A stretch of DNA of 64,000 nt from Streptomyces cynarae (lineage in GTDB: Bacteria; Actinomycetota; Actinomycetes; Streptomycetales; Streptomycetaceae), in assembly GCF_025642135.1 (NCBI RefSeq), contig NZ_CP106793.1, forward strand, positions 3,331,001 to 3,395,000, in the 5' to 3' direction. Shown here piece after piece: positions 2,456-64,000 of the stretch. Every line of letters begins with the position of its first letter. Positions within the stretch are counted from its first letter, which is position 1. A program made the translations under genes and the position numbers. The notes beneath the pieces are model-generated. The model worked only from the letters and a program-made list of their open reading frames with translations, was not told the origin of the DNA and made no database searches.

Positions 2456-2519
2456 CGCTCGGGGGCGTCAACGGCAACGGCGCAACACTGCCGCAAAGGA
2501 TGGCAGTTCATGGCAGATC

Positions 2520-4140: not shown

Positions 4141-4203
4141 GCCGCTCGGGGTCGGGGTCGCCCGGGCGTCGGTTCCGCGACTCGGCGGTACGAAGGGCCG
4201 CAG

Positions 4204-11192: not shown

Positions 11193-11256
11193 CTCAGTTG
11201 GTTAGAGCAGCTGACTCTTAATCAGCGGGTCCGGGGTTCGAGTCCCTGGCGGCGCA
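11183..11256 (+). tRNA. tRNA-Lys(CTT), copy 1
   Basis: 74 nt, CCA not encoded. Acceptor stem GCGCCGC (11183-11189) pairs with GCGGCGC (11249-11255), discriminator A. Anticodon stem GCTGA/TCAGC encloses loop CTCTTAA with anticodon CTT, reading AAG. T arm contains GGTTCGAGTCC. Identical to the genes at 23105 and 27361. AAG is the dominant Lys codon in GC-rich genomes, so several copies are plausible. Confidence 0.97.
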
Positions 11257-11262
11257 CGATGG

Positions 11263-13165: not shown

Positions 13166-13596
13166 CCCCAGCCTGGTCTTACTTGTATTACTACGTCCTG
13201 TTTGTCTGCCCCGGAAGGGTGAGAGGCCATCAGCCAGGGGATGAGCCAGGAGGGATCCGCGACGGCCGCGGGAGGGGCAGTGCGGGGCGGGAGCGCACGA
13301 CGGCGCACGAGCGCCAAGGGGGCGGCCGACATGCGCCGACGCCCCCAATACTCACGGAACGTCACAGCCATGGGCGGCCTGATGGACCGGGGTCCGGCAC
13401 GGGCAGAAACGATCTGTCAGAACACGCGCTCGCCGCGGGACACTGGACATCGGCTGGAAGGCCTTTGGGTCAGCCTCTATGATCGGCACACTTTCCTGCA
13501 CGAACACGGCTTGTACGGCCGCCCACCTTGCGGCCGTCGACCCCGACGAGACCCAAGAGATCCGTACGAAGAACGAGTGCACTGCGGGAGCGAGCG
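13166..13596. other. Divergent intergenic region M6 peptidase / cdgA
   Basis: 431 bp without a convincing gene. Near the peptidase start the sequence is unusually A/T-rich (13180-13200), a likely leftward promoter. Nearer cdgA, CTGGAA (13454-13459), 17 bases, TATGAT (13477-13482) forms a good rightward promoter, giving a leader of about 108 bases. Inside the leader ACGGCCGC (13515-13522) and GCGGCCGT (13530-13537) form a perfect 8-bp stem with a 7-base loop. In S. coelicolor cdgA is a BldD target; I could not fix a BldD site by eye. Confidence 0.55.
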
Positions 13597-15567: not shown

Positions 15568-15631
15568 GCCCGTCCGGCATTTGAGGACGGGGCCGTTCAG
15601 GTCGAAGGGCGTCTGGGGGCGCAGCCCTCAA

Positions 15632-23104: not shown

Positions 23105-23178
23105 GCGCCGCTAGCTCAGTTGGTTAGAGCAGCTGACTCTTAATCAGCGGGTCCGGGGTTCGAGTCCCTGGCGGCGCA
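23105..23178 (+). tRNA. tRNA-Lys(CTT), copy 2
   Basis: Same 74-nt sequence as copies 1 and 3; acceptor stem GCGCCGC/GCGGCGC, anticodon loop CTCTTAA. Its flanks differ from those of the other two. A -10-like TAGTAT lies at 23057-23062, about 42 bases upstream. Confidence 0.97.
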
Positions 23179-23184
23179 CGATGA

Positions 23185-27360: not shown

Positions 27361-27434
27361 GCGCCGCTAGCTCAGTTGGTTAGAGCAGCTGACTCTTAAT
27401 CAGCGGGTCCGGGGTTCGAGTCCCTGGCGGCGCA
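27361..27434 (+). tRNA. tRNA-Lys(CTT), copy 3
   Basis: Identical to the copies at 11183 and 23105; 74 nt, anticodon CTT, CCA not encoded. Confidence 0.97.
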
Positions 27435-27440
27435 CGATGG

Positions 27441-49503: not shown

Positions 49504-50010
49504 ATGAGCAGTGAGCCGCGCAGCGGCAGTCAGGATTCCTGGGCCTCATCGCCTGGCACGCGACGGAGTATGCAGTCCAACAAAGGGCGGGACACGAAAC
49601 CCGAACTGGCTCTTCGGCGAGCTGTTCACGCGTTGGGGCTGCGGTACAAGGTGTCCATCCGTCCACTGCCGAAGGTCAGGCGCACAGCAGACCTCGTCTT
49701 CTCGCGGGTGCGTCTGGCCGTCTTCTTGGACGGCTGCTACTGGCATGGCTGCCCGGAGCACCACACTCTGTCGGCGACGAATAGGACTTATTGGACCGAC
49801 AAGCTCGAGACGAATCGTCGCCGCGACCGGCAGACCGACCAATGGCTCCGCGAAGCGGGGTGGGAGGTTCTCCGTGTGTGGGAGCACGAAGATCCGTTGG
49901 CTGCCGCACTGCGAGTGCGCGAGGTGTACGACCGGCGACGCCACGAGGTCGGTGCCTCCCGCGCGGGTCCCACAAGCACTCGCCGTACGCAGGGCTCGTC
50001 CCGTCGCTGA
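49504..50010 (+). CDS. vsr: Very short patch repair endonuclease
   Basis: 168 aa. Clear Vsr: S-N-K-G-R-D-T-K-P-E-L-A-L-R-R (25-39), T-A-D-L-V-F with catalytic Asp63, and F-L-D-G-C-Y-W-H-G-C-P-E-H near 75-87 with the His/Cys zinc and active-site residues. Vsr nicks T:G mismatches made when 5-methylcytosine deaminates, so it normally travels with C5 methyltransferases, and two follow here. Upstream in-frame sequence is untypical, so ATG 49504 is taken. In some restriction systems Vsr-like PD-(D/E)XK proteins act as the nuclease; both roles are open. First gene of the island. Confidence 0.92.
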   Translation: MSSEPRSGSQDSWASSPGTRRSMQSNKGRDTKPELALRRAVHALGLRYKVSIRPLPKVRRTADLVFSRVRLAVFLDGCYWHGCPEHHTLSATNRTYWTDKLETNRRRDRQTDQWLREAGWEVLRVWEHEDPLAAALRVREVYDRRRHEVGASRAGPTSTRRTQGSSRR

Positions 50011-50047
50011 GTCTTCACACCATTTCAGCGGTCAGCTCAGAGACGTC

Positions 50048-50400
50048 ATGTTCACAACGCGAGACTTTCGCCCGGCACGGCGGCATCTCCGTTCGGATGC
50101 CGCGTCACCACTACGTGATCGGACTGGCGCGCCCGGCCCACTACCGGCTTTGGCTACTACACCGCCGCCCAGCTCGCGCGCCTCAACCGCGTCGCCCCCG
50201 GGTCCGCCCTCCAGCAGGTCCAGCACATCGCGGACGAGAAAATCAACGCAAAGGAGCTGCGCGGCACATTACGGCTGCAATGGGCAGACCAGCCCTCAGC
50301 ACGCACAGCCGAGGGCCGACGGGAACCGGTGGCGCAGCATGCCGGATCGGTACATGGGCACGACCGGGAGACGGCGGAGCGCCTGAGCCTGGAAGGTTGA
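50048..50400 (+). pseudogene. Decayed MerR-family regulator
   Basis: ATGTTCAC and then GACTTTCGCCCGGCACGG... CTCCGTTCGGATGC... GCGTCAC read, after several small insertions and deletions, as the MerR opening M-F-T-I-G-D-F-A-R-H-G-R-V-S-V-R-M-L-R-H-Y. Further on the frame gives G-Y-Y-T-A-A-Q-L-A-R-L-N-R-V ... L-Q-Q-V-Q-H-I-A-D-E-K-I-N-A-K-E-L-R-G-T-L-R-L, the second half of the DNA-binding domain with a short internal deletion, and a TGA at 50398. Effector domain missing. Unlike the single-base frame breaks elsewhere, this has many changes and is true decay. Confidence 0.8.
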
Positions 50401-50503
50401 ACAGTGCTGCGGTTCTGGCGGTTTGAAGTTCCCGAGGAGCTGGCCGCACGGGTGGGGCGGCTGCAGAGCGGCGTCGGACAGAATGAATCGGGGGGAGAAG
50501 AGA

Positions 50504-51499
50504 ATGAGCGGACTGACCTTCGTGGATGTGTGCTCCGGGGCGGGTGGGCTTGCCCTCGGGCTGGAGCAGGCGGGGTTCGAGCCACGCCTGCTGCTGGATC
50601 ACGACGAGCTCGCCGTGGAGACTCTGCGGAATAACCGGCCGCAATGGAAAGTGCTTCACGCCGACCTGTTGGGCTTCGACCCGGCCGAGCACCCCGTGAG
50701 TTACGACGTCGATCTGCTGGCGGCCGGTCTACCCCGGGTGAAGTCGAGCGCGACGGTGACGCGCCGATCGTCCGACGCTGAGATCCGCCTCATCCAGGCG
50801 ACCGCCTACCTGGTCCACGCCGTCCAGCCACGCGCGCTGGTCATCGAGAACATGCCCACCTTGGTCAACGGAAGCTCTTTTGCGCCGATACGGGAGTTCC
50901 TCCACGAAGAGTTGGAGCACCTCGGCTACGAACTGATCTGGTTCGTCCTGAACGCCTCCGACTTCGGAGTGCCCCAGGACCGCGAGCACGGCATCCTCGC
51001 AGCCGTCAAGCAGCAGTGGGCAAGCGCCTTCCGGCCACCTCGACCCACCGTCCACACGCACGTGTCGGTCGGAGAGGCGCTGGCGCGGTCGATGCGTTCC
51101 CGCGGCTGGCCGGACGCCGACCGCTGGGCGGCCCAGGCGACGAGTGTGGCGCCGACCTTGGTGGGCGGATCCAAGACACACGGAGGCCCGGACTTCGGAC
51201 CGCGCGGCACGAAGGCCAGGTGGCGGCAGATGGGCGTCTACACGAAGTCGTTCGGGAACGAACCCCCGGGCCGCGACTTCAAGTGGGATCCGTCACTTGG
51301 GGACGACGGACTGGTGCGGATAACAGTGGACCAGACGGCTCTCCTCCAAGGCTTCCCCGAATCATGGGAGATCGCAGGACTGAAGACCGCCCGATACCGC
51401 CAGATCGGACACGCGACGCCACCACCCGTCGCTGAGGCGCTGGGACGGGCTGTCGCCCAAGCGCTGAGCCGGGATCCGGCTGTCCCCGCTGCCGGCTAG
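50504..51499 (+). CDS. C5-cytosine methyltransferase homologue lacking the catalytic Cys
   Basis: 331 aa. Motif I F-V-D-V-C-S-G-A-G-G-L near 6-16, motif VI V-I-E-N-M-P near 113-118, motif VIII-like F-G-V-P-Q-D-R-E near 146-153, and motifs IX-X Q-G-F-P-E-S-W ... Q-I-G-H-A-T-P-P-P-V-A near the C-terminus are all present. At motif IV, where active enzymes have Pro-Cys, this protein has L-P-R-V-K-S (Pro77-Arg78). It should bind SAM and DNA but not form the covalent intermediate. It starts at ATG 50504 after GGGGGAG and is followed 11 bases later by a complete methyltransferase, suggesting a paired complex or a target-recognition partner. I am unsure whether this variant is a known subfamily. Confidence 0.88.
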   Translation: MSGLTFVDVCSGAGGLALGLEQAGFEPRLLLDHDELAVETLRNNRPQWKVLHADLLGFDPAEHPVSYDVDLLAAGLPRVKSSATVTRRSSDAEIRLIQATAYLVHAVQPRALVIENMPTLVNGSSFAPIREFLHEELEHLGYELIWFVLNASDFGVPQDREHGILAAVKQQWASAFRPPRPTVHTHVSVGEALARSMRSRGWPDADRWAAQATSVAPTLVGGSKTHGGPDFGPRGTKARWRQMGVYTKSFGNEPPGRDFKWDPSLGDDGLVRITVDQTALLQGFPESWEIAGLKTARYRQIGHATPPPVAEALGRAVAQALSRDPAVPAAG

Positions 51500-51510
51500 A
51501 CTTCCGCCAC

Positions 51511-52842
51511 ATGACCAGCACGCCGCACGATCAGCCCATCCTCGACAAACCTTTTGTCCTGGATCTCTTCGCAGGGCCCGGCGGGCTGGACGTGGCCGCA
51601 CACGTGCTCGGTGTACCGAGCCTCGGCATCGAATGGGACAAGAGCGCCTGTCTGACGCGTTACGCGGCCGGACTGGACACCTTGCACGCCGACGTGAGCG
51701 CGGTTCGCAGGGATGCCTTCGAGTCGCTGCCCCCGGAGATCAACGTGCTCGCCGGTGGTCCCCCGTGCCAGACGTACTCGGTTGCCGGGAGCGGCGTCGG
51801 TCGCCAGGCCCTGGAACAGGTCAAGGGCTACATCGAGCGACTCATGGCGGGCGTCTCCAACGAGGAGATCGACAAGGAGTTGAAGAAGCTCAGCGATCCG
51901 CGCACGGCGTTGGTCCTCGAACCTCTCCGCTACGCGATCCAGGCGACGAGGAGCCCGAACCGCGGCAACCGGCCGTACGACGTCATCGTCTTGGAACAGG
52001 TCCCCGCGGTCGAGGCGCTCTGGGAGCATTACGCCCTGGTGCTGCGGAAGATCGGCCTGCCCGACGGCACCAAGTACGAGGTCAAGGTCGACGTCCTCGA
52101 CACCGAGACCTACGGAGTTCCGCAGACGCGTTCGCGAGCCGTGCTGATCGCTCGCCGTAAGGGGCTCGGTGAGCCCTTCCTTCCCGAGCCGACTCACCGC
52201 GCCTATGAGGCGAAGGAGTGGAACCGCAGGAACGGCGGGGCCGTCGCTCTCGCGCATCAGCCGGCTCTCGACGAGGAGATCGCTCCCAAGCCGGTGACGC
52301 GCCAGGAGAAGGCCGAGGGACCGCAGCCGTGGGTGTCGATGCGCATGGCCCTGCCCGGCCGCAAGAAACCCTTCCTGGTGCGCTCGAACTACGGCAGCTC
52401 CGGGAACCCCGGACGACGCGGTGTACGGACCGACCAGCAGCCGGCCGCCACTGTCACCGGCCGCATCTCACGCTTCGTGGTCTTCGAGCACCTCGACGAG
52501 AACATCGTCTACGAGGGCTCACGGTTCAGCATGAACGAGGCGGGGATGCTGCAGAGCTTCCCGCCGGAGTACCCCTGGTCGGGCAAGGCACAGGCCCAGC
52601 AGGTGGGCAACGCCGTGCCGCCCCTCTTCGGGGCGCACCTGCTGAGCGCCGCGCTCGGTCTTCCCGCGCCGGACCCGGAGGTTCTGCGGGAGCCGTGGGT
52701 GCCGGCCACGGAAGAGGAACGGGCCAAACTGCGCAGCCACGGCTGCGGGTCGGCGGACGACTGCACCGCCAGCTGCCCGCTCCCCGATAAGCAGGCGCCG
52801 CCGCGCTCCACCGGGCGCAAGAAGAAGTCCTCGGCCGGGTAG
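51511..52842 (+). CDS. DNA (cytosine-5) methyltransferase
   Basis: 443 aa. Motif I V-L-D-L-F-A-G-P-G-G-L near 16-26, motif IV G-G-P-P-C-Q-T-Y-S with catalytic Cys86, motif VI V-L-E-Q-V-P (Glu kept, Asn replaced by Gln), motif VIII Q-T-R-S-R-A near 205-210, and motifs IX-X M-L-Q-S-F-P-P-E-Y and Q-V-G-N-A-V-P-P. The region 215-330 is the target-recognition part. The tail is Cys/Lys-rich (C-G-S-A-D-D-C-T-A-S-C-P-L). It should methylate cytosine in an unknown motif, protecting host DNA or marking self. Eleven bases after the inactive homologue, same strand; convergent with the HTH-GHKL operon 16 bases away. Confidence 0.93.
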   Translation: MTSTPHDQPILDKPFVLDLFAGPGGLDVAAHVLGVPSLGIEWDKSACLTRYAAGLDTLHADVSAVRRDAFESLPPEINVLAGGPPCQTYSVAGSGVGRQALEQVKGYIERLMAGVSNEEIDKELKKLSDPRTALVLEPLRYAIQATRSPNRGNRPYDVIVLEQVPAVEALWEHYALVLRKIGLPDGTKYEVKVDVLDTETYGVPQTRSRAVLIARRKGLGEPFLPEPTHRAYEAKEWNRRNGGAVALAHQPALDEEIAPKPVTRQEKAEGPQPWVSMRMALPGRKKPFLVRSNYGSSGNPGRRGVRTDQQPAATVTGRISRFVVFEHLDENIVYEGSRFSMNEAGMLQSFPPEYPWSGKAQAQQVGNAVPPLFGAHLLSAALGLPAPDPEVLREPWVPATEEERAKLRSHGCGSADDCTASCPLPDKQAPPRSTGRKKKSSAG

Positions 52843-52858
52843 CCACGGCGGACGCGGA

Positions 52859-53737
52859 TCAGATCTCGCTCTTCCTGCCCCTGATCGGCGCGGTCTCGAA
52901 GAGTTCGGTGAAGTGGTCGACGAGCAGGGCCACGGAGTCCTCCGGGACAGGGTCCTCATCGGGTCCGTCCGGGAGAACGTGACGCGAGACCGGGGGTGCC
53001 GTCTCCGCCTCCGCGATCCAGTTCCGAAGAGGGCCCGGGTCCCTGGGCTCGTCCGGTGCGAGGACGTCGTAGACCAAGGTCGCTCCGGCCGCGGTGATGG
53101 CAACGCTCAGACCGTTGATCTCCCGCCCTGTGGCAATTTTGCCGCTCTTCACAAGGCGGACGAGGGCCTGAGCGGTAGGACGGTGATCGATCAGGTCTCT
53201 CCGCAGAACCGTGTGGATGAGGTCCTGGTTGCCACAAGCCACCTCGACGGGCTCATAGTCCGGACCGTTCCGGAACAGCTCGGCCGCCCACCACAGACGG
53301 GAGAAGCACTGGCGGTCCGCGGGGCCCTGGAAACGCTCCGCGGGGATACGCCGCTCCGGCCGCGCTGCCGTCGGCTCCGACAGGTGTCGCCAGGCCACGT
53401 AGTCCGGGGCCACCGCCAGCGCGAGGTGTGTCCACAGGCGCTTGTCCGCCGCCTCCCGCCGCGTGAGGCGCAGCGTGGCATGAAGCCGCGGCGCGAGCCA
53501 CGCGTCGGCGCGGGTGCGGTCGTCGCGGAACTCGAAAATGGCGTCTTCCACCAGGCTGCGGATCGGCTCGACCGCCCATCTGGCGTCGTCCTCGGGGAGC
53601 GGTTCGACGACCTTGGCGAGGTCGATGCCGCCGTGCACCTGTTCGGCCTTGAGCAGTTGCTCGGTGAGGAACCTGTCGGCGGCCGATGCGGGGAGCAGCG
53701 CCAAGCGCTCCGGTACGTGGTCGGGCTGGGTGATCAC
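52859..53737 (-). CDS. Uncharacterised island protein (DUF6339-like, tentative)
   Basis: 292 aa, mostly helical, no membrane span. R-L-W-T-H-L-A-L-A-V near 103 and R-L-W-W-A-A-E-L-F-R near 148 are Trp-rich helices; the C-terminal third is acidic. I recall proteins annotated DUF6339 beside actinobacterial methyltransferases that look similar, but cannot confirm. GTG at 53737 overlaps the preceding stop (GTGA), and that gene starts three bases after the ATPase gene ends, so the three are one translationally coupled operon. No nuclease motif is obvious. Last gene of the operon, tail-to-tail with the methyltransferase. Confidence 0.7.
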   Translation of the reverse strand: MITQPDHVPERLALLPASAADRFLTEQLLKAEQVHGGIDLAKVVEPLPEDDARWAVEPIRSLVEDAIFEFRDDRTRADAWLAPRLHATLRLTRREAADKRLWTHLALAVAPDYVAWRHLSEPTAARPERRIPAERFQGPADRQCFSRLWWAAELFRNGPDYEPVEVACGNQDLIHTVLRRDLIDHRPTAQALVRLVKSGKIATGREINGLSVAITAAGATLVYDVLAPDEPRDPGPLRNWIAEAETAPPVSRHVLPDGPDEDPVPEDSVALLVDHFTELFETAPIRGRKSEI

Positions 53738-54729
53738 TTCTCGCTCTCCCGGTTCGCTTGTTCCAGACTGCGGATGGCATAACCCAGCGCCCTGGAGGCC
53801 TCGGCGCGTCGGATCGCTGCGTAGTGGATACGTGTCTGCAGTTCGGCCCAGCCCGAATCGCCGGTGCGCCGGCGGTGCACCTGCCGCAGGGCCTCCTCGA
53901 CGTGCACGCCGGGCACGACGTCCGGGAGCATCTCCCGCAGGACCTCGCCCTGCCAGTCGGTGGGGAAGACCGGGTTGCCACCGGGCTCGATCTCCAGGTC
54001 GCCGATGGCACCGTGGAACACGGCGGTCCACACGTCCGTGGCCATCTGGGCGACGAGGAGGTCGCGGACCTTGCTCTCCACGCCGGAGCCGCTGCTGTCC
54101 AACAGCCCCACGATCCCCTCGACATCGGTGTTCACGAAGACGGTGGGCACCCTGGCCGAGGTGTCCACGATCCAGGGCACGTCGGCGTAGGCCCGCAGCC
54201 ATTCCCTGGAGCTCTTGGTGAAGGAGGCTTTGCGAACCTCCAGTTGGAGGCCGCTGACCGGCTCGTCGGAGACCGTGTCGACGATCCAACTCCGGTCGGT
54301 CTCGGCGATCGACCGTCCCGCCACTCCGTCGACCGTGCCGGCGGCGTAGATGATGAGGGAGGCGCGCCCCAGGTGGTCGTCGCGGAGCAACTCCAGAAAG
54401 CCCGACCAATCACGGCTGTCCTCCGCGTCACGCGTGAGGTCCGTCGTGGTACGGACGTTGGTCTCGCCGTCCACCAGCACGGCGAGGACGCGCACGTCGG
54501 ACCAAGCCGCGTCCGGCGCGTCGGCCCCGGGGGGCAGGGTTGCTGACAGGCCGATGGTGGCGCTCACCCAGTCGTCGTGCCCCGCAACGCCGAGCGCGAC
54601 GGCCTGTTGCTGAGTCGAGTACGCGCTGGTGTCCAGTTGGTCCCGCGTACCGTCCGCGAGTTTGAGGGAGACCGACGTCACCCGGAACGTGATCGGGCGG
54701 TTGAGTCGCTTGTACGGGTAGATCTTCAC
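53734..54729 (-). CDS. Uncharacterised island protein, middle of the GHKL operon
   Basis: 331 aa, not recognised. The N-terminal ~110 residues are beta-rich (I-T-F-R-V-T-S-V-S-L-K-L and similar), followed by mixed alpha/beta with V-F-V-N-T-D-V-E-G-I and a helical C-terminus (H-Y-A-A-I-R-R-A-E-A-S-R). Cys-free. No Walker or PD-(D/E)XK pattern that I trust. GTG at 54729 has GGGGGAG six bases upstream, supplied by the end of the ATPase gene. Strict coupling to the ATPase suggests a complex, for example a clamp or DNA-recognition partner of the GHKL protein. Confidence 0.75.
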   Translation of the reverse strand: MKIYPYKRLNRPITFRVTSVSLKLADGTRDQLDTSAYSTQQQAVALGVAGHDDWVSATIGLSATLPPGADAPDAAWSDVRVLAVLVDGETNVRTTTDLTRDAEDSRDWSGFLELLRDDHLGRASLIIYAAGTVDGVAGRSIAETDRSWIVDTVSDEPVSGLQLEVRKASFTKSSREWLRAYADVPWIVDTSARVPTVFVNTDVEGIVGLLDSSGSGVESKVRDLLVAQMATDVWTAVFHGAIGDLEIEPGGNPVFPTDWQGEVLREMLPDVVPGVHVEEALRQVHRRRTGDSGWAELQTRIHYAAIRRAEASRALGYAIRSLEQANRESEK

Positions 54730-54732
54730 GCG

Positions 54733-56883
54733 TCACTCCCCCTTGCCGGCACGCAGTTCGAGCACCAGGCGGGTCAGCGCGGTCCTGACCGGGTGGCTGG
54801 TGACGTCCGTGGCGCCGCGGAACGTCGCGCGGCGGACTCCGGGGGTGAAGCGGAGGGTGCCGTCCTCCACCTCGCAGCCCTCGACGGCCTCAAGCTCCGC
54901 CCAGTCCAGCTTCGGGCGGCCGCCGGAGCGCACGTCCAACAGAGCGACGGGCACCATGGGGACGATCTCGTCACCACGCGGGATGCTGACCTCGGCGGTG
55001 ATCCTCCAGTCGCCCGCATCGCCGATCGTCGCATCGAGCCCGTTCAGCACCGGGATCACGGGGCCGGTGGGCACCCTGGCCTTGGGCCGGTTCTTCACGG
55101 TCAGCGCCTTGCGCAGCGCCTCTCCACCTTCGCGACTGCTGCGCTTCGGGCGAGCGACGAGTTCCCTGACGGCGTTGTTGACCTCTTTGGTCAGCCCCTC
55201 GATCCGCCGGTACGCGGAAGGCGACCAGCGCAGCGTCAACTCCTCCGTCTGGCCCCAACGGTCGTGCTCGGGGGGTTCGGCCGCACGTAGGAATTCCTCG
55301 GCCTCCTTGGCGAAGGGTGCCGCTTCCCCGGCAGCCTCTCCTGCCAGGAGAACCGCCTGGAACGGGTTGGTCCCGAGCGGCAGTCGCGGAACCGTAGCCT
55401 TCCTGACGGTCATGCGGTTGCCGCGCAGCGAATGCACCTGATTGATCGGCCTGTCGTTGTCGCCGGCCGCCTCGGTGACCAGCAGCACCGTCTGGTGGAT
55501 CCCGAGCGTGCCGCCGACAGCACCTCCCGACAGCGGCAGCTTCAGGGGAACGTTCCGAACCGCGACCTGCCCGGCCTCGGTGAGCCTGTCCACCGTGGTG
55601 CCCTCGTAGAAGGCCCGCAGGGCGCGGGTCCTGGAGGGTTGTTCGACCGAGGGATCCACCTTGGTCTCCTCCACCACCACCTCTCCGTCGTTGCGCAGAG
55701 CGCGGACCGACACCTCCAGGAGGGGGAGTCGGCCGCCACCACCGGTCATGGCAGCCCAGAAGTCACGGCCCAACGCCTGGGCGAGCCGCTTGTGCATCCT
55801 CCGGATGTCGCGGGTGTCCTCGTCCCCCTCCTCCTCGACGCTGTCGTCGTCGAGGTCGGATGTGCTCGCCTCCAGGCTGGCCACATCATGCGCACCGACG
55901 ATGAGGAAGGACGTACCGGGCTCGTCGCTGTCGCGGCTCAGGTGCAGGCGCTCCACGGTCTCCTCGTCCGCCCACCACGAGCGGGCGACCTCGGCGCCCG
56001 GCGAGTCGGGATCGGGGCGTCCGAACCAGGCAGGGCCCGCGTACGGGCGACCGTCGACTTCCCGCCACGGCAGTTCGAGACGGCCGATCATGCGTCGCTC
56101 GGTGCGCCCCTCATGGGGAACGGAGAGCGTCGAGTTGATGAGCACCAGCCCGAGCGCGCTGGTAGCCCACAATGTCGCCTTGCCCAGTCCGTACGAACCG
56201 CCCGCCGAGCGCCCGGACTTGAGGCTCTCCAGCTGACGCCTGACCACGGCGGCGAACTTACCGTCCGCGTAGTCGTCGCCGGTGAGGCCGGAGGCGTTGT
56301 AGTCATCGACACGCAGTAGGACCAGACGGCCCTTCTCGTACATGTCACGCACACCGGCGTCCACGACCCGCCCGACTTTCTGGTTGCCGGCGAGTTCCGA
56401 GACGGCCGAGTAGTGCGGGAAGAGATCGTTCCAGAGGATCGCGTCACGGAAGGCGTCAAGGTGTTCGCCGGTCAACTCATGCAGTGTGTACCGCACTCGG
56501 ACCGGACGGCCGTTCTCCGTCAACCGCTCGTCGAGGCTGTTCTGACAGGTCTCGCGCGCGAGTACCTGTACGTCCGCGTCGAAGGCGAAGGCTGCGGCAT
56601 TGCCGAGTTCCCGGCCACCATCGGGGTAGCCGGGACGGTGGTACCACGTCACTGGGAGACCGGCCTGGGTGTCGGTGGTACGCGTGTGTACCGTGCCGAG
56701 GTCCGTGCCGAGCGCCTTGGCGATGTCCGCCATCACCGTAGGGCGTGGGGTCGACCTCCCCGTGATCCATGCGGAGACGGCGGCTCGGGTCAGGCCGAGC
56801 TCCTCGGCCAGTTCGGCCTGCGTCTTCCCCGCGAGCTTGAGCTGCCGGGCCAGCCACGGCCCGAACTCCTCACCTGTCTCCAC
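54733..56883 (-). CDS. XRE helix-turn-helix fused to a GHKL (MutL/MORC-like) ATPase
   Basis: 716 aa. Residues 12-65: XRE HTH (Q-A-E-L-A-E-E-L-G-L-T-R-A-A-V-S-A-W-I). Residues 90-330: GHKL ATPase with N-box R-E-T-C-Q-N-S-L-D-E (110-119), D-box V-D-D-Y-N-A-S-G-L (192-200) and G-box G-G-S-Y-G-L-G-K (228-235). The rest (330-716) is mixed and acidic in places (a D/E-rich loop near 350-365), with R-P-K-R-S-S-R-E near 600. GHKL ATPases of the MutL/MORC group act as ATP-driven DNA clamps and occur in predicted restriction systems (Iyer, Abhiman and Aravind 2008). The HTH could bind the dyad in the upstream promoter, making the enzyme its own regulator. GTG start. Confidence 0.88.
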   Translation of the reverse strand: METGEEFGPWLARQLKLAGKTQAELAEELGLTRAAVSAWITGRSTPRPTVMADIAKALGTDLGTVHTRTTDTQAGLPVTWYHRPGYPDGGRELGNAAAFAFDADVQVLARETCQNSLDERLTENGRPVRVRYTLHELTGEHLDAFRDAILWNDLFPHYSAVSELAGNQKVGRVVDAGVRDMYEKGRLVLLRVDDYNASGLTGDDYADGKFAAVVRRQLESLKSGRSAGGSYGLGKATLWATSALGLVLINSTLSVPHEGRTERRMIGRLELPWREVDGRPYAGPAWFGRPDPDSPGAEVARSWWADEETVERLHLSRDSDEPGTSFLIVGAHDVASLEASTSDLDDDSVEEEGDEDTRDIRRMHKRLAQALGRDFWAAMTGGGGRLPLLEVSVRALRNDGEVVVEETKVDPSVEQPSRTRALRAFYEGTTVDRLTEAGQVAVRNVPLKLPLSGGAVGGTLGIHQTVLLVTEAAGDNDRPINQVHSLRGNRMTVRKATVPRLPLGTNPFQAVLLAGEAAGEAAPFAKEAEEFLRAAEPPEHDRWGQTEELTLRWSPSAYRRIEGLTKEVNNAVRELVARPKRSSREGGEALRKALTVKNRPKARVPTGPVIPVLNGLDATIGDAGDWRITAEVSIPRGDEIVPMVPVALLDVRSGGRPKLDWAELEAVEGCEVEDGTLRFTPGVRRATFRGATDVTSHPVRTALTRLVLELRAGKGE

Positions 56884-57395
56884 GCGCCACCTGCTCTTCC
56901 TCGGGTCGTCCCGATGACGCTAATTTGACATCATCGATCTTGTCAACCAATAGTTAACAGGCCTCTCTTCGACAGGAACATCGGCATCGGTTTCCCGATT
57001 TGCCCGTATTGCCCCTTTGGTGAAGCTCCCTCTTCCCCTGTCGAAGAAGCGGAATAAGCAACTCCCCTTCCTGGTACGCGACTTCAGGGTTGCGCAGTTG
57101 CCCCGGCACCACTAATGTGATTATCGATGGAGAATCCATCCCGCTCGCACAATCCACATTCGGACCGTCGGGCGGCCGGGGAACTAGTGCGTCCAAAATC
57201 ACCCTGGCGCAAGAGGGGATAGCCGTATCCTCGCCCGCTCATCGACTGCGCGAGAAGCATCTTTTCGAAAAGGTTGGCAGCCCGAGGTCTCCCCCCAGTA
57301 GCGTGATCGAGGGGAAGAACAATCCCACGGCTTGAACAATTACGTCTCACGGGGGCGTGGCCCATTGCACCCCTGTGCGAAAAGCGGAGGACAAC
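56884..57395. other. Divergent control region of the two defence operons
   Basis: About 510 bp of lower GC than the flanks. The left end holds the dyad promoter (56917-56954). 57040-57140 and 57290-57350 have further A/T-rich patches, possible rightward promoters. Short open frames exist on both strands, but none has a gene-like composition or ribosome site. Confidence 0.5.
56917..56954. promoter_or_regulatory. Divergent promoter within a 22-bp dyad
   Basis: TTGACA (56925-56930), TC, ATCGAT, CT, TGTCAA (56941-56946): a dyad with a consensus -35 box in each direction. Leftward, TTGACA, 18 bases, TAGCGT drives the GHKL ATPase gene with a start about 25 bases ahead of its GTG. Rightward, AATAGT at 56949-56954 is a weaker -10. 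A protein bound to the dyad would govern both operons. Confidence 0.7.
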
Positions 57396-57458
57396 GTGAC
57401 AGGGGGGCTCAGAATTGGAAGACAGCGATTGCGGTTTCTTGCTGCTCTCGCAGCGTGA
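57396..57458 (+). CDS. Possible 20-codon leader peptide
   Basis: GTG at 57396, five bases after a strong GGAGG, opens a 20-codon frame (MTGGLRIGRQRLRFLAALAA) ending at TGA 57456-57458. It overlaps the 62-codon frame that starts at TTG 57415. It has the best ribosome site of this area, so it is either a true leader controlling the downstream gene by coupling, or a sign that the 62-aa gene really begins here and one base is missing. Confidence 0.35.
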   Translation: MTGGLRIGRQRLRFLAALAA

Positions 57459-57603
57459 GCGCAGCGCCTTGTGGTTGGACATCTGTCGGGCGGCGAGCAA
57501 GGCCGAGGCGGCCGAGGTTCTTCACCGGCACGACGTGTCCGAGGACGACTTCGTCAAGGAGTTTCCGGACTTGGCCAAGGTGGTCCAGCTGCTGCCGGAC
57601 TAG
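57415..57603 (+). CDS. Small helical protein ahead of the sacsin-helicase gene
   Basis: 62 aa from TTG 57415 (E-D-S-D-C-G-F-L-L-L-S-Q-R-E-R ...). Two or three amphipathic helices, rich in Ala, Glu and Asp, e.g. A-S-K-A-E-A-A-E-V-L-H-R-H-D-V-S-E-D-D-F. No homologue recognised. Codon use is GC-biased at third positions, which supports translation. It precedes the large ATPase-helicase by 190 bases on the same strand. Could be a regulatory or inhibitory subunit, or a chance frame. Confidence 0.45.
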   Translation: MEDSDCGFLLLSQRERSALWLDICRAASKAEAAEVLHRHDVSEDDFVKEFPDLAKVVQLLPD

Positions 57604-57793
57604 GGTCCCGCGATCCGACGGCGGAGGTCGCCGCCCCTGAAACCCCCTGCACATCCGCGTCTTCGACCGTACCGAGGACGCTTTCGACCGATCCCGGACA
57701 CTCCCGTCCGCCACGGGCCGGCTTCGCGCAAGCTGCTGCCGGCCCGTCCGTCGCCCACCTTTCTTCCACCTCCAAACTCGGGAGCGCAGAACA

Positions 57794-60700
57794 GTGCCGT
57801 CCTCGTCCTCCGCAGTCATCGAAACCGTTCTCGAGCAGTCCACCCGCGTCCTCCAGACTTATGCCGTGGACCCCGGCCTCGTGGCCGAGCACGCCAACGG
57901 AGAACGCCGCATCACGCAGGGCGGATACGGCGACCGACAGCTTTTCGAACTCGTCCAGAACGCGGCCGATGAAATCGCGGACGACTCCGGAGGTCGAATT
58001 CACGTCGTCCTTACCGACGGCCTTTTGTACTGCGCGAACGAGGGTAATCCGGTGACCCCGGAGGGCGCGGAGACCATTCTTCGAATGAGCATGTCGAAGA
58101 AGCGCGGCGGCCAGATCGGGCGTTTCGGAGTCGGCGTGAAGTCCGTTCTCGTGGTGACGGACACCCCGGAATTCTTCAGCAGCAGTGGCAGCTTTGGATT
58201 CAACCGTGCCTGGTCATACGAGAAGATCAAATCCGTGCCCGGTGTGACGGCGCGCTACGGCCCGGAGTTCGACGCCCCCGTCCTGCGGATGGCACGCCCG
58301 CTCGACATGCAGGCGGAACGCGCCGCCGACCCTGTGCTGGACGAACTGCTCGCCTGGGCGACCACCGTGGTCCGACTGCCCCTGCTCCCGAAGGCCGACG
58401 AGCGGCTGGGCCGGGACATGCACGGTACGCGGGGCAAGGACCACGGCGAACCACGCGAGGAGTTCCCCGTCGGCTTCCAGCTCTTCTCGCCGCACGTGGC
58501 GAAGGTCGTGCTGGAGGACCGCCGACCCCGGCCCGCGGTCCGCCGGATCCTGACCGCCCACCGGTCCGGCGACCTGCACACCGTGGTGGAGGAACGCACC
58601 GACAAGGCCGCATCCACCGAGCAGTGGCGCGTCTTCACCGTCACGCACGAGCCCGGTCCCCTGGCCCGGAACGACGCCGGTGAGCTGCACGACCGCATCA
58701 CGCTCGACCTGTCGTGGGGCGTTCCCGCCCTGGCGAAGGACCCGGAGAGCGGCCTGCACGTCAGCCCTCGCTCGCGCGGCCGCGGCAAGTTCTGGTCCTT
58801 CTTCCCGACCAAGTACGAGATGTCGTTGAGCGGCATCCTCAACGGCGCCTGGAAGACGAACGAGGACCGGCAGAACCTGCTCGACTCCTCGCCCTTCAAC
58901 CAAGAAATGATCCGAAGGTCAGCGCAGTTGGTCGTCGACTCCCTCCCCTCCCTGGCCCCCGCCGAGGACCCGGCCGCCTACCTGCCGCTGCTCCCCGGCC
59001 GCATCAAGGAAGCCATCAGCTGGGCCGACGAGTTCCTGACCCGTGAGATCTGGGCGCGCGCCGGGCGCTGCCCGTCACTGCCCGACCAGGACGGCATCCT
59101 GCGCGTCCCTACGGCGCTTCGCGTCCACCCACGGCTCGACAGGGACCCGAGGAAGCTCTCCCGTTGGCTGCGGATGTGGCACGAGTGCCCCGGGCGCCCA
59201 TCGAACTGGCTGCACCCGAGCGTGGAGGCCGACGTCCTGCGCTCCGGAAAGGTCGAGCACATCCTCGCCGCGGCCGGGCACGAGCGGGTCGAAGTCCGTG
59301 AATGGCTGGAGGCTCTGGTCGAGGGCGGTACCCCGGAAGGGTCGGCGGTGGCCGTCCGCATCCTCGCGGACATGATCGAGCAGGGTTCCCCGTTCGCCGA
59401 GGAGGCGCGCAAGGCCCGCATCGTGCTCACCGAGGAGCACGGTCTCGTGGCCCCGGTGCACGGCAAGGTGTTCCGCCGAACCGAACAGGACGGACTGCGT
59501 GAGTCGACGGTGTACGTGGTCGCCGAGTTGGCCCAGGATCCGTCGCTGGCGCACGCCCTGAACGTCCTCGGCATCCGGGAGGCCGACGCCGAAGGCCGCT
59601 TCACCAGCGTCCTTGACCGCGGCTTCGACCACTACTCCGACTCGGACTGGCTGCGGTTCTGGGAACTCTTCCGCCGGGCCGGGGTCCGACGGCTGGCCCA
59701 CAAGGTCCTGGAGCGGGTGCCCACGCCCCGCTCGACGCTCCGTGTCCAGACCGCCGACAAGCGGTTCCGGCCGATCGAGGACTGCATGCTGCCCGGCGTC
59801 GTGGTCGACGCCGAGCGCGACCCCGAAGTGGCCGTCGACATGGACTTCCACTCCGACGACACCCCCTTCTTCTCCCAGATCGGCCTGCGGGACCGGCCGG
59901 CCGGAGGGGTCCAGCCGCAGGTGGGCGAGGAATGGTTCGAGGAGTACCGCACGGCCGTCCACACCTCGTACCTGCGCACTCTGGACAACAGCGCCCCACG
60001 GCCCTCGCTGAACCGGATGAAGGTCGAGGGCGCCGCCATCGGTGGCCCGCTCCACCTCTTCCGCGCCCTCTCGCCGGAGTCCCGTGCCCGTTTCCTGAAG
60101 GCTCTGCCCGACGACGCCGTGGTCACCAACTGGACACGGCAGTTCGGCGCCCAGACCAACACCCGGCAGGCGGTGACGTCCCCGATCCGATGGATGCTGC
60201 GCAAGTACGGCACGGTCGCCACCTCGAAGGGGATCAAACCGCTCACGGAAGCCGTTGGCCCCCAGCTCATCGCGTACCGCGACGTCCTGCCCGTCGCGGA
60301 CATCTCCGCCGAGAAGGCCCGCAGGCTGCGACTCCCCAGCACCGTCGAAGAAGTGCCCACCGACCGCTGGGACACGCTCCTCGAGGAGGTGTCCCGCAGT
60401 GAGGACGACGTGTTCGTCGGCACCACCTACGTGATGCTGACCCGGTTCGGGGCGGACTTCCCCGAGGACTCTTTGACCCGTTGCCGGATCGGCGAAACCT
60501 GGGGCACCCGCCCCGACGGCGAGATCACGCTCGCCGTCGGTGACGTCGAGTACCGCGCGCTGCGCGCCGAGCAACTGCCGGCCCTGCTCGTGCCGACCGC
60601 CCAGGACGCCGAGCTGATGGCAGAGAAGTGGGGCATGCTCCGCTACGCCGAGGTGATCACCCGGGAGACCCGTGAAGTACCCGAGGGAGATCCCGTGCCG

Positions 60701-62557
60701 CTGGTCGAGCTGTTCCCCGCCCTGCGGCAGCGTCTGAACAGCGGCAACCGGAACAGCACGGTGCAGCGGTGCACCGAGTTGGAGGAGGTCACCCGCACCC
60801 CCAACGGCACCCACGCCTCTCCCCTGGACGCCGTGCGTCAAGACAGCACCGTCAAGGTCCGCGTGCCGCTCGAACCTGAGCCGATGCTGCGACTGATCGA
60901 CCGGGAACTCGGCCTGGAGCTCGGCGACGCGGGGTGCCGCGCGGTGCTGGAGCACCAGGAGCGCATGGCACGCGACAGCGAGCTGAGGACGGCGCAGAAG
61001 GCCGTGCGCGAGGCCGAGGACGTCGTGACCAAGATCGAACTGCTGATCGGCGCGGACGCGCTCAGGGCGGGTCTTCCCGAAGGGCTGATGGAGGCGGAAC
61101 TGCAGGCGACCGGCGGCATGGAACCGTCTCCACGCCGGATCGCGCAGATGGCGTTCAACGCGCACGGCGACGGCGTGCTCCAGCAGCATGCCAGGGACAT
61201 CCAAGCCCGCTTTCCCAACGCTCCCGTGGCGTACGGGGGTTCGTCGGCGGCCATCTCATTCGTCTCGGACCTGAAGCTGCCGATCACGTTCGCCGGTTCG
61301 CGGACTCCGTCGCCGCCCCCGTTCGAGACCGTGGAGGGCCCGCGGGACTTCCCGAGCCTGCACGGCTACCAGGAGGACCTGGTCCGCAACATCTCCACCA
61401 TGCTCGACCGGCTGGCCCCGCAGCGCGGCATGCTGTCGCTGCCCACCGGCGCGGGCAAGACGCGGGTCACCGCCGAGGCCGTCATCCGCTGGGTCAAGCG
61501 GGTCGGCGACCTCAAGGGTCCGCTGCTGTGGATCGCACAGACCGAGGAACTGTGCGAACAGGCTGTACAGAGCTGGAAGTTCGTCTGGAACAAGGTGGGT
61601 GCGGAGCGTCCGCTCACCATCAGCCGCCTGTGGAGCAGCAACGAGGTCGGAAACGTCGTGGACCACCCGCACCTGGTGGTCGCCACGGACGCCAAACTAG
61701 AGCGGTGCCTGGGCACCGACCAGTACGTGTGGCTGCGCGAGACCGCCCTGGTGATCGTCGACGAGGCACACACCGCCATCTCCAAGCGGTACACCGAGGT
61801 CTTGGGCCTGCTGGGGCTCACCCAGTACGAAACCCGCCGGCATCTGCTCGGTCTGACCGCGACCCCCTTCCGCAACAACAACGAGGACGAGACTCGCCGG
61901 CTGATCAACCGCTTCGGCAACAGGCGACTCGACGAGGGGGTCTTCCCGTCCGGCGACCCGTACCGTGATCTGCAGAAGTGGGGCATGCTCGCCGAGGTCG
62001 AGCACCGCACTCTGGAAGGCGGCCGGATCGAACTGAGCCAGGACGAGAAGACGCACGCCGAGCGCATGGCGATGCTGTCCCGCGCCGCCGAGCAGCGGCT
62101 CGCCGACGACCACGCGCGCAGCCGGCGCATCGTCGACTGGGTGGCGGAACTGCCGGAGGATTGGCCGACGTTGCTCTTCGCGACGTCCGTGGATCACGCC
62201 AAGTATCTGGCGGCCATGCTCAATGACCGGGGTGTCCCGTCCGCCGCCGTGGACTCGACGACCAGTGCGCAGGACCGTCGCACTCGTATCGAGAATTTCC
62301 GAAACGGCCGCATTCGCGTGCTCACCAATTACGGTGTTCTCACCCAGGGGTTCGACGCCCCGTCGACCCGTGTGGTGGTCGTCGCGCGGCCGGTCTTCAG
62401 CAGGAACGTCTACCAGCAGATGATCGGTCGTGGTCTGCGCGGTCCCAAGAACGGCGGCAAGGATACCTGCCTGATCCTCAACGTCAGTGACAACATCGCC
62501 AACTTCGACACGCAGCTCGCGTTCACCCAGTTCGAGCACCTTTGGAGCCGCACGTGA
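57794..62557 (+). CDS. Sacsin-type GHKL ATPase fused to an SF2 helicase
   Basis: 1587 aa. Residues 35-160: HSP90-like/sacsin ATPase with G-G-Y-G-D-R-Q-L-F-E-L-V-Q-N-A-A-D (N-box, 42-58), C-A-N-E-G-N-P-V-T-P (D-box equivalent, about 80) and I-G-R-F-G-V-G-V-K-S (G-box, about 107-116). Residues 160-1180: large region with no known domain. Residues 1190-1587: SF2 helicase with L-P-T-G-A-G-K-T (about 1215), V-D-E-A-H (about 1322), L-T-A-T-P-F, L-T-Q-G-F-D-A-P-S and Q-M-I-G-R-G-L-R-G (about 1541). GTG at 57794 follows GGGAG. Stop overlaps the UvrD start. A nucleic-acid motor joined to a chaperone-like sensor ATPase is typical of large anti-phage effectors. Confidence 0.9.
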   Translation: MPSSSSAVIETVLEQSTRVLQTYAVDPGLVAEHANGERRITQGGYGDRQLFELVQNAADEIADDSGGRIHVVLTDGLLYCANEGNPVTPEGAETILRMSMSKKRGGQIGRFGVGVKSVLVVTDTPEFFSSSGSFGFNRAWSYEKIKSVPGVTARYGPEFDAPVLRMARPLDMQAERAADPVLDELLAWATTVVRLPLLPKADERLGRDMHGTRGKDHGEPREEFPVGFQLFSPHVAKVVLEDRRPRPAVRRILTAHRSGDLHTVVEERTDKAASTEQWRVFTVTHEPGPLARNDAGELHDRITLDLSWGVPALAKDPESGLHVSPRSRGRGKFWSFFPTKYEMSLSGILNGAWKTNEDRQNLLDSSPFNQEMIRRSAQLVVDSLPSLAPAEDPAAYLPLLPGRIKEAISWADEFLTREIWARAGRCPSLPDQDGILRVPTALRVHPRLDRDPRKLSRWLRMWHECPGRPSNWLHPSVEADVLRSGKVEHILAAAGHERVEVREWLEALVEGGTPEGSAVAVRILADMIEQGSPFAEEARKARIVLTEEHGLVAPVHGKVFRRTEQDGLRESTVYVVAELAQDPSLAHALNVLGIREADAEGRFTSVLDRGFDHYSDSDWLRFWELFRRAGVRRLAHKVLERVPTPRSTLRVQTADKRFRPIEDCMLPGVVVDAERDPEVAVDMDFHSDDTPFFSQIGLRDRPAGGVQPQVGEEWFEEYRTAVHTSYLRTLDNSAPRPSLNRMKVEGAAIGGPLHLFRALSPESRARFLKALPDDAVVTNWTRQFGAQTNTRQAVTSPIRWMLRKYGTVATSKGIKPLTEAVGPQLIAYRDVLPVADISAEKARRLRLPSTVEEVPTDRWDTLLEEVSRSEDDVFVGTTYVMLTRFGADFPEDSLTRCRIGETWGTRPDGEITLAVGDVEYRALRAEQLPALLVPTAQDAELMAEKWGMLRYAEVITRETREVPEGDPVPLVELFPALRQRLNSGNRNSTVQRCTELEEVTRTPNGTHASPLDAVRQDSTVKVRVPLEPEPMLRLIDRELGLELGDAGCRAVLEHQERMARDSELRTAQKAVREAEDVVTKIELLIGADALRAGLPEGLMEAELQATGGMEPSPRRIAQMAFNAHGDGVLQQHARDIQARFPNAPVAYGGSSAAISFVSDLKLPITFAGSRTPSPPPFETVEGPRDFPSLHGYQEDLVRNISTMLDRLAPQRGMLSLPTGAGKTRVTAEAVIRWVKRVGDLKGPLLWIAQTEELCEQAVQSWKFVWNKVGAERPLTISRLWSSNEVGNVVDHPHLVVATDAKLERCLGTDQYVWLRETALVIVDEAHTAISKRYTEVLGLLGLTQYETRRHLLGLTATPFRNNNEDETRRLINRFGNRRLDEGVFPSGDPYRDLQKWGMLAEVEHRTLEGGRIELSQDEKTHAERMAMLSRAAEQRLADDHARSRRIVDWVAELPEDWPTLLFATSVDHAKYLAAMLNDRGVPSAAVDSTTSAQDRRTRIENFRNGRIRVLTNYGVLTQGFDAPSTRVVVVARPVFSRNVYQQMIGRGLRGPKNGGKDTCLILNVSDNIANFDTQLAFTQFEHLWSRT

Positions 62558-64000
62558 CCGACGTCTACCTCGACAGCCCTCCGCTCACGGCCGAGCAGCG
62601 GTCCGTGGTCGAGCAGCCCTGGGACGCGCGCGTCCTGGTGACCGCGGGCGCCGGGGCGGGCAAGACGCACACCCTGGTGCGCCGGCTCGACGCACTGTGC
62701 GGTCACGAGGACCCGGACGAGGCGCTGGAGGCGTCGGAGATCCTGGTGCTCACCTTCTCCCGGGCTGCCGCCCGTGAGTTGCGTGAACGCATCGCGCGGC
62801 ACGGGGAGCGGGCCCGCCGGGTGCGCGCCCAGACCTTCGACGCGTGGGCGTACGGGGTTCTCCTACAGGCGCATCCGGATCGGGAGTGGGGTGGTGTCTC
62901 CTTCGACGAGCGGATCCGCGCCGCTGCCGAGGCGATCGAGAAGGGTGCACTGGAGGCCGGTGATTCCCTGCCGCCCGCCCATGTGATGATCGACGAGGTG
63001 CAGGACCTGTTGGGGGACCGGCGGGAACTGGTGGAGGCGCTACTCGACCGCTACCAGGACAGCTGTGGCTTCACCGTGGTGGGCGACGCTGCCCAGTCCG
63101 TTTACGGCTTTCAGATCGAGGATCGGGAAGAACGCGACGCCGAGACCGGCCGGTTCTTCGAGTGGCTGCGATGTTCGTTCCCCGACGACCTCGTGGAGCT
63201 GCGTCTCACGGAGAACTTCCGGGCCACCACTCCGGAGGCGCGGCTCGCGCTGGCGTACGGCCCTCGGCTCCAGCGGGTCCGGGACGCGGACGAGGCGGCC
63301 ACGCTCTACGAGGAGCTGCGCGACCTGCTCCTCGATCCGGTGAACGCGCACGGCGACCTCACCGACGAGTACACGCTGCAGGGTCTGCGGGACATCGATG
63401 ACACCTGTGCGATCCTCGCCCGCGACAACCGGCAGGCACTGGTGGTCTCGCGACTGCTCCACCAGAACGGCGTCGAGCACCGACTGCGTCGTCCTCTGGA
63501 GGAGCGGCCGGTTCCCTACTGGGTGGCGGAGCTGCTGCGCCGTACCGAGGCCACCGGGCTGACCGAGGACCGGTTCCGTTCCCTGCTCGCGGAAATACCG
63601 CTGCCCCACGAACCGAACGGGACGGCCCTGTGGACCGTGCTGCGGCGCGCCACACGCTCGCCCGGGCGCACCGCGCTCGATCTTGACCGGCTGCGCCGCT
63701 TGGTCGGCGACGGCCGGTTCCCCGACGAAGCGGCCGACCCGGAGACCGCGCGGATCGTCGTCTCCACCGTGCACCGGGCCAAGGGCCTGGAGTTCGACCG
63801 GGTGATCGTGCTGACACCACCGACCATCGCCGACCTGCACAAGCAGTACAAGGACGAGCTGGACCTTCCCGCCGAGGCCCGGGCACTGTACGTGGCCATG
63901 ACGCGCGCCCGGCAGGACCTCTACCACATGCCCTCCCCCGAACTGCCGCTGTTCCGGAGAGCGGGCGGGCGCAAGAACGGCCGGCGCTACATCGGTGGGT
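62554..64000 (+). CDS. UvrD/Rep-like SF1 helicase (runs off window)
   Basis: About 482 residues visible, C-terminus missing. Q-motif L-T-A-E-Q-R, motif I A-G-A-G-A-G-K-T-H-T near 32, motif II V-M-I-D-E-V-Q-D near 146-153, motif III V-G-D-A-A-Q-S-V-Y-G-F near 175-185, motif V S-T-V-H-R-A-K-G-L-E-F near 405, motif VI Y-V-A-M-T-R-A-R near 447. The region between motif III and V is compact, shorter than in full UvrD. GTG 62554 overlaps the stop of the sacsin-helicase (GTGA), so the two act as a pair. SF1A helicases of this kind appear in several defence systems beside an ATPase. A nuclease domain may lie past the edge. Confidence 0.9.
   Translation, partial: MTDVYLDSPPLTAEQRSVVEQPWDARVLVTAGAGAGKTHTLVRRLDALCGHEDPDEALEASEILVLTFSRAAARELRERIARHGERARRVRAQTFDAWAYGVLLQAHPDREWGGVSFDERIRAAAEAIEKGALEAGDSLPPAHVMIDEVQDLLGDRRELVEALLDRYQDSCGFTVVGDAAQSVYGFQIEDREERDAETGRFFEWLRCSFPDDLVELRLTENFRATTPEARLALAYGPRLQRVRDADEAATLYEELRDLLLDPVNAHGDLTDEYTLQGLRDIDDTCAILARDNRQALVVSRLLHQNGVEHRLRRPLEERPVPYWVAELLRRTEATGLTEDRFRSLLAEIPLPHEPNGTALWTVLRRATRSPGRTALDLDRLRRLVGDGRFPDEAADPETARIVVSTVHRAKGLEFDRVIVLTPPTIADLHKQYKDELDLPAEARALYVAMTRARQDLYHMPSPELPLFRRAGGRKNGRRYIGG

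Follow-up and report, generated by a model that had tools for sequence, protein, structure and literature searches.

A probable DISARM variant linked to a GHKL ATPase arm in a Streptomyces chromosome

DISARM is an antiphage system whose helicase pair, DrmAB, is described as stimulated by unmethylated DNA and may block or unwind phage DNA, and whose DrmC component is dispensable and often missing (PMC9142583). Here we describe a candidate relative of this system that begins near the end of a 64-kb stretch of one chromosome of the 9.36-Mb Streptomyces cynarae genome (assembly GCF_025642135.1, contig NZ_CP106793.1, positions 3,331,001 to 3,395,000). This whole stretch is called the window, and its first letter is position 1. 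The unit is a ~20-kb block of ten large genes and a 62-amino-acid (aa) open reading frame (ORF). Judged by sequence comparison, it is best read as a DISARM variant that has no recognised DrmC, DrmD or DrmE and carries a sacsin-type ATPase-helicase, a UvrD-family helicase, a pair of C5-cytosine methyltransferase homologues and an arm built around a GHKL ATPase. We put the probability that it works as one antiphage unit of the DISARM kind at roughly 0.66.

Several other systems share parts of this gene content. MORC and paraMORC proteins are GHKL ATPases found beside C5 methyltransferases, Vsr and superfamily 2 (SF2) helicases (PMC2292703); the likeness is one of gene setting, and the accessible part of that paper names neither drmA/drmB nor DISARM nor DUF6339. 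An earlier note on this DNA, made from the letters of the window, had pointed to a MORC-type setting, and the resemblance holds insofar as a GHKL ATPase here accompanies C5 methyltransferases, Vsr and an SF2 helicase. ARMADA type II has a DISARM-related helicase and a GajB-like UvrD helicase in one operon, with a Druantia-like YprA helicase, a PglX-like methyltransferase and a BrxHII-like helicase (PMC12458937). Unlike ARMADA type II, the present unit has C5-type methyltransferases and separate DrmA and DrmB proteins, and a weak BrxHI/BrxHII match in the helicase part of its sacsin protein (E 5e-4) is all that recalls the last of these components. The UvrD protein matches the GajB models of Gabija, with no GajA among the PADLOC families listed (for MT1, MT2 and UvrD, the best 25). 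No DruE appears in the complete lists for DrmA and DrmB, whose helicase and zinc-binding parts are separate, unlike the YprA-type DruE of Druantia with its fused DUF1998.

The drmA-drmB operon and the divergent GHKL arm

The window cuts the right-hand operon, and we found the remainder in the next stretch of the same genome; coordinates beyond 64000 continue the window numbering. The operon encodes a 1587-aa protein, sacsin-SF2 (57794-62557, forward strand), with a sacsin-type GHKL ATPase at its N-terminus (NCBIfam P_loop_sacsin, E 7e-19, above cut-off; PADLOC TmtA, best match 9-392) and an SF2 helicase at its C-terminus (Pfam ResIII, E 2.6e-17; Helicase_C, E 6.5e-13). It is followed on the same strand by a 638-aa UvrD-family superfamily 1 helicase (62542-64458; Pfam UvrD-helicase, E 2.9e-25) and by drmA (64455-67691) and drmB (67688-69553), both wholly past the window. 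DrmA matches the PADLOC DrmA model (E 1.4e-242) and the DrmA of the solved DISARM pair (PDB 7s9v_A, E 2.6e-176); DrmB, a zinc-binding protein with DUF1998/MZB, matches its PADLOC model (E 3.3e-71) and PDB 7s9v_B (E 8.3e-72). The alignment starts at residue 143 of the solved DrmA, so the N-terminal part of that protein, where class 1 DrmA is described as having an EVE-like domain (PMC12458937), is not matched. Sequence patterns are intact in 28/29 DrmA homologues, the exception being cut by a contig end, and each sacsin-protein pattern is found in 25/26 or 26/26. Gene ends overlap at all three junctions (sacsin-UvrD, UvrD-drmA and drmA-drmB, the last by 4 bp between the drmA stop and the drmB start), which suggests that the four genes probably form one coupled operon.

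The likeness to DISARM thus lies in two neighbouring but separate genes, drmA and drmB, whose products are homologues of the solved DrmAB pair, and in a C5 methyltransferase, MT2, in the same locus, as in the DrmMII systems (PMC9142583). The difference lies in what this unit adds: sacsin-SF2 and UvrD within the operon, the GHKL arm, Vsr and a second methyltransferase homologue, MT1, without the catalytic cysteine. The earlier note had held that the locus does not match DISARM; this was wrong because the window stops inside an operon that ends in drmA and drmB. All the genes that the note did name are present.

Divergent from the operon runs a tightly packed set of three genes on the reverse strand, which we call the GHKL arm or triple. 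Its first gene (54733-56883) encodes a 716-aa protein with a helix-turn-helix (HTH; Pfam HTH_3, E 5.7e-13) and a GHKL ATPase that matches the PADLOC candidate model PDC-M33A (E 1.7e-22), as do 14/14 members of its alignment. The patterns that we take to be the N-box, G1, G2 and G3 motifs of GHKL ATP binding are intact in 32/32 homologues. The second gene (53734-54729) encodes a 331-aa protein of unassigned function, whose structure model (predicted local distance difference test, pLDDT, 87.5; predicted template modelling score, pTM, 0.56) has a predicted Ig-like beta-sandwich N-terminal domain and a helical C-terminal domain. Neither Pfam, PADLOC nor NCBIfam gave it a match at E 0.001, and at that threshold PADLOC likewise returned nothing for three counterparts from archaea and cyanobacteria; the protein is present in 80/80 related loci. 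The third gene (52859-53737) encodes a DUF6339-family protein (Pfam, E 3e-14, above cut-off; PADLOC PDC-M33C, E 4e-10) modelled as nearly all-helical (pLDDT 88.7). A fold search with the models of these two partners returned no informative fold match.

The arm resembles PDC-M33 in its GHKL and DUF6339 proteins and differs in the added N-terminal HTH and in a middle protein that no PADLOC model matches at E 0.001; the names M33A and M33C suggest that an M33B model also exists. We found no publication in the literature that names this candidate. The note's view that no named system covers the locus does not hold for the half with drmA and drmB: the PADLOC search recovers DrmA and DrmB of DISARM, and also PDC-M33A and PDC-M33C, and leaves the 331-aa protein without a model. 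The unit is accordingly not categorically new: its two core proteins make it a DISARM variant, and the candidate module attached to it is one for which we found no function described in the literature. It connects DISARM with GHKL ATPases beside restriction genes, a connection that we did not find in the literature.

An operator-like inverted repeat, TTGAC-N12-GTCAA (56925-56946), lies upstream of the HTH-GHKL gene. Allowing a spacer of 11-14 nucleotides, the dyad occurs 41-150 bp upstream of the GHKL start in 55/65 divergent sacsin loci and in 0/15 other loci; among random 110-bp stretches of the same loci it occurs in 56/16000. The conserved dyad, together with the HTH in the GHKL protein, suggests autorepression. 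A dyad promoter shared by both operons had been proposed from the window; the dyad is borne out, and it adjoins the GHKL start, ~850 bp from the sacsin start; its sharing by both operons is not borne out.

Recurrence, co-inheritance and insertion site

We scanned 150 genomes of the genus with the sacsin-SF2 protein (E 1e-30) and the HTH-GHKL protein. The sacsin protein had matches in 31/150 genomes, 24 of them full-length at 47% identity or more, one (G097) full-length at 33% and six in the helicase part only; G097 and the six helicase-only matches were left out of the sacsin-locus counts. The HTH-GHKL protein was found in 32/150. The 24 sacsin genomes and nine GHKL genomes without a close sacsin gene were annotated by tblastn. 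The GHKL operon stands beside and divergent from the sacsin gene in 23/24 loci, and all ten genes occur in the order vsr-MT1-MT2-DUF6339-331 aa-GHKL-sacsin-UvrD-drmA-drmB in 16/24. Departures from this order mostly concern vsr and the methyltransferases: G074, G071, G086 and G144 have no vsr (G144 is also cut inside drmA by a contig end), G129 has an inverted vsr and an MT2 split in two, G051 has MT1 to the right of drmB, and G137 has MT1, MT2 and vsr there, MT1 and vsr being incomplete. Seen from the GHKL gene, drmA is next to it in 26/32 genomes, in 23 with the sacsin gene and in three with NERD-UvrD, drmA and drmB. The recurrence and the conserved order that the earlier note had proposed to check are thus borne out, its count of eight genes giving way to ten large genes and the 62-aa ORF. 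Nor do the left and right halves occur independently in most genomes of the genus, one of the outcomes that the note had said would refute it.

Searching species genomes with a GHKL profile, we obtained 212 relatives and retained the top 80; some strains overlap the 150-genome set. Among these 80 loci, drmA was seen in 79, sacsin in 67, UvrD in 65, both GHKL partners in 80, MT2 in 79, MT1 in 70 and vsr in 71. We also compared pairwise protein distances over 21 loci (23 minus the incomplete G137 and G144), dropping proteins shorter than 100 aa, which left vsr in 16/21 and UvrD in 20/21. Distances correlate at 0.90-0.98 among DUF6339, the 331-aa protein, GHKL, sacsin, UvrD, DrmA and DrmB. MT2 correlates with these seven at 0.77-0.85, MT1 at 0.61-0.68 and vsr at 0.19-0.26, with 0.45 between vsr and MT1. 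These values suggest that the seven proteins form the body of the system and that the modification and repair genes are exchanged more freely.

The pairing extends beyond the divergent arrangement. In two Nocardia loci (L200 and L204, 2/80), sacsin, NERD-UvrD, drmA, drmB, GHKL, the 331-aa protein and DUF6339 are all on one strand. Among 21 plasmid records matching the GHKL protein, four are haloarchaeal, and 3/4 of these carry homologues of drmA, drmB and drmC no more than 12 kb from the triple. Both arrangements speak against a chance neighbourhood. From the repeated pairing, haloarchaeal plasmids included, we predict that DrmAB and the GHKL-DUF6339 triple work as partners. As a separate observation, a Halomicrobium urmianum plasmid (L128) carries two GHKL-X-DUF6339 triples (1827-5567 and 11962-15591), one of them near drmE-drmA-drmB-drmC.

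Two flanking genes, one left of vsr and one right of drmB, come to within 115 bp and 166 bp of the unit and enclose an interval of 20.3 kb (49389-69719; chromosome positions 3380389-3400719) holding the system and nothing else. We sought both flanking genes in 61 genomes and found them together in 19; in 14 of these they lie on one contig within 36 kb, and in the other five they lie on different contigs and are uninformative. The spacing is 1.3-14 kb in the 10/14 genomes without the system, where the site is nearly empty or taken up by other genes, and 20.3-35 kb in the 4/14 with it. In the ten relatives without it (L220-L229) the interval holds a helicase protein (4), a methyltransferase and vsr cassette (5) or a 367-aa ORF (1); that of L220 contains a 1047-aa ORF that, by eye, joins PLD-like and SF2 parts. 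The chromosomal interval looks like a defence hotspot in which the ten genes come as one block, and its defined 20.3-kb border supplies a clean gene set for laboratory work in Streptomyces.

The methyltransferase pair and Vsr

Left of the GHKL arm, three genes on the forward strand encode Vsr (49504-50010; NCBIfam TIGR00632, E 2e-35, above cut-off; PADLOC Vsr, E 3.4e-13), MT1 (50504-51499; Pfam DNA_methylase, E 6e-39; 331 aa, with the start adopted from database record P0122) and MT2 (51511-52842; DNA_methylase, E 4.9e-25). The pairing of an altered methyltransferase with a normal one, which had been noticed from the window, is confirmed: in MT1, GLPRVK takes the place of the PCQ or PCP of C5 methyltransferases and the motif IV cysteine is lost, whereas MT2 keeps GGPPCQ, with PPCQ in 31/31 homologues checked. 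The cysteine is likewise absent in 31/31 readable MT1 homologues (of 33) from the loci and in 119/120 database homologues, the motif of the remaining one being unreadable (inspection covered the top 120 of 3618). Databases name MT1 a DNA cytosine methyltransferase; judged by its sequence, it is probably not an active enzyme. Its best PADLOC match is DruM2. MT2 matches the DrmMII models, with other methyltransferase models scoring higher.

Forty plasmid records match MT1, and three of the 12 listed were inspected. Their methyltransferases show 41-42% identity to MT1, carry PCPPFS at the motif IV site and share with it the segment APTLVGGSK..GG.D.GP, which we take to be the target-recognition part, the site presumably being GCCGGC. 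An NgoMIV-family endonuclease follows one of them, a NaeI-family endonuclease lies near the second on the opposite strand, and the third (Kovacikia) has a hypothetical protein. These resemblances identify MT1 as a degenerate relative of the NgoMIV/NaeI-linked enzymes. The loss of the catalytic residue while the other motifs and the APTLVGGSK segment are kept suggests a role for MT1 as reader or partner. DNMT3L is a eukaryotic precedent. Another is DRM3 (PMC2965745). If MT1 were indeed a reader subunit, it would offer a defence system a novel means of distinguishing self from non-self.

Across ten close loci MT1 falls into two allelic types that diverge after motif IV. In G017, the GHKL protein is 97% and MT1 64% identical to those of S. 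cynarae. Vsr homologues show the HGC pattern in 26/29 and the strict Asp pattern in 9/29. By Pfam, no nuclease other than Vsr was recognised among the ten proteins. Elsewhere, Rhodococcus opacus B4 plasmid pROB02 (L240, 3395-7254 and 1-2854) carries helicase-related and DUF1998 genes, as in DISARM, adjoining vsr, a NaeI-family endonuclease and a C5 methyltransferase, a possible link between NaeI-type restriction and DISARM.

Readings of the locus and minor features

Gene identities and linkage are observed directly; each functional step in what follows is proposed from them. The simplest reading would be a DrmAB engine supplemented by two more motors and by the GHKL arm. MT2 would write 5-methylcytosine on host DNA, MT1 would act as its partner or as a reader of its site, and Vsr would remove the T:G mismatches left by deamination of 5-methylcytosine. 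DrmAB would load on incoming unmodified DNA, translocate, and block or unwind it, with the sacsin ATPase-helicase and UvrD feeding or remodelling it. The GHKL protein and its two partners could form an ATP-gated DNA clamp or licensing arm, and the HTH may repress the protein's own promoter at the TTGAC-N12-GTCAA dyad. A bolder version, which we regard as tentative and rather unlikely, makes this a third DISARM class. In it, the sacsin-type ATPase-helicase and UvrD would replace DrmC, DrmD and DrmE, and the machine would be gated by a GHKL-type clamp (GHKL, the Ig-like protein and DUF6339) that archaea and bacteria each paired with DISARM. The dead MT1 would still recognise a GCCGGC-type site, read self and non-self, and recruit or license the machine, as a bacterial counterpart of DNMT3L or DRM3.

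A number of observations weigh against a single DISARM-type unit. Among the missing components, the complete Pfam lists for the ten proteins contain no PLD family and there is no DrmC among the PADLOC families listed, and the same PADLOC models do detect DrmC in haloarchaeal loci. Neither the class 1 DrmD (SNF2-type helicase) nor DrmMI (adenine methyltransferase) is among those families (for MT1, MT2 and UvrD, the best 25). The class 2 DrmE is absent from the complete sacsin list and from the best 25 of 44 UvrD families, and a Halomicrobium DrmE (1624 bits to its model) shows no similarity to the sacsin protein or UvrD. The strict UvrD patterns are met unevenly (Walker A 18/24, motif II 23/24, motif VI 14/24), so we make no strict motif claims for UvrD, nor for Vsr for the same reason. 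The poor distance correlations of vsr (0.19-0.45) and MT1 (0.45-0.68) suggest that these two could be accessory or exchangeable genes. A large part of the linkage, moreover, concerns a single site, the right flanking gene following drmB in 6/8 system loci examined, and there shared descent alone can keep genes together without a functional link.

The halves can also be found apart, and this bears on the possible, if in our judgement doubtful, alternative that two separate systems share a hotspot without joint action: the right half would be a DISARM variant and the left half an independent GHKL-DUF6339-methyltransferase system. Six of the 32 GHKL genomes have the left half only, with vsr on the other side and no drmA nearby, although in one of them (G099) the contig ends <1 kb beyond the GHKL gene. 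L181 is the sole locus of the 80 in which no drmA was seen, a Synechococcus plasmid has the triple and one C5 methyltransferase with no DISARM gene found, and the fourth haloarchaeal plasmid, of Halobacterium sp. DL1 (L127), has two triples and a methyltransferase with no drmA in the stretch examined. Conversely, G095 has the right half only, G441 a sacsin gene without the GHKL arm, and G343, of another class, the right half with vsr, an intact, conventional C5 methyltransferase and NERD-UvrD and again no GHKL arm. The S. cynarae genome itself holds a paralogous operon without the arm (G000:C1:5880370-5891500; L121, L122), made up of sacsin-SF2 (33% identity), NERD-UvrD, drmA and drmB, whose 536-aa UvrD has an apparent N-terminal NERD-like nuclease part (by eye); G097 carries a near copy of it, plus vsr, MT1 and MT2, likewise without the arm. 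That relatives keep other defence-type genes at the same site would also fit two systems. Against them stand the presence of both halves in 23/24 close-sacsin genomes, the correlations of 0.90-0.98 across the halves, and the DISARM pairing on haloarchaeal plasmids and, rearranged, in Nocardia.

We think it improbable that the HTH-GHKL operon mainly regulates the divergent DISARM operon by sensing single-stranded DNA or DNA damage, like CapK-CapS. The fusion of HTH to GHKL, the divergent position and the restriction of the dyad to divergent loci would suit a regulator, and CapK, an HTH-STAS-GHKL kinase sited next to immune operons, offers a parallel (PMC13373217). But the triple also occurs with methyltransferases and Vsr alone in the six left-half genomes, with no immune operon seen beside it, the HTH region is missing in 3/3 archaeal and cyanobacterial GHKL homologues aligned, the dyad is far from the sacsin start, and the GHKL partners match no STAS model (Pfam, PADLOC and NCBIfam and, for the family of the 331-aa protein, a further Pfam search). 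We consider it very unlikely that this is an ordinary C5 restriction-modification locus that cuts through Vsr or an unseen nuclease, with the helicases as bystanders, even though Vsr and MT2 look intact and relatives carry methyltransferase and vsr cassettes at the same site. Pfam recognised no type II restriction endonuclease in the ten proteins, and NCBIfam none in the eight other than DrmA and DrmB; matches to PADLOC restriction-enzyme models are confined to the helicase part of the sacsin protein; 9/80 loci yielded no vsr; and conservation is strongest in the helicase and GHKL genes. We therefore retain a single DISARM-type unit as the preferred reading.

Two minor features complete the description. 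The 62-aa ORF (57415-57603, forward strand) precedes the sacsin gene and has no family match in Pfam, PADLOC or NCBIfam; a similar ORF stands in the same place and on the same strand in 24/65 divergent loci at E <1e-3, and in 29/65 when weak matches up to E 1.5 are counted. Elsewhere in the window, three tRNA-Lys (CTT) genes lie within 16.3 kb (11183-11257, 23105-23179 and 27361-27435) and are possibly integration sites.

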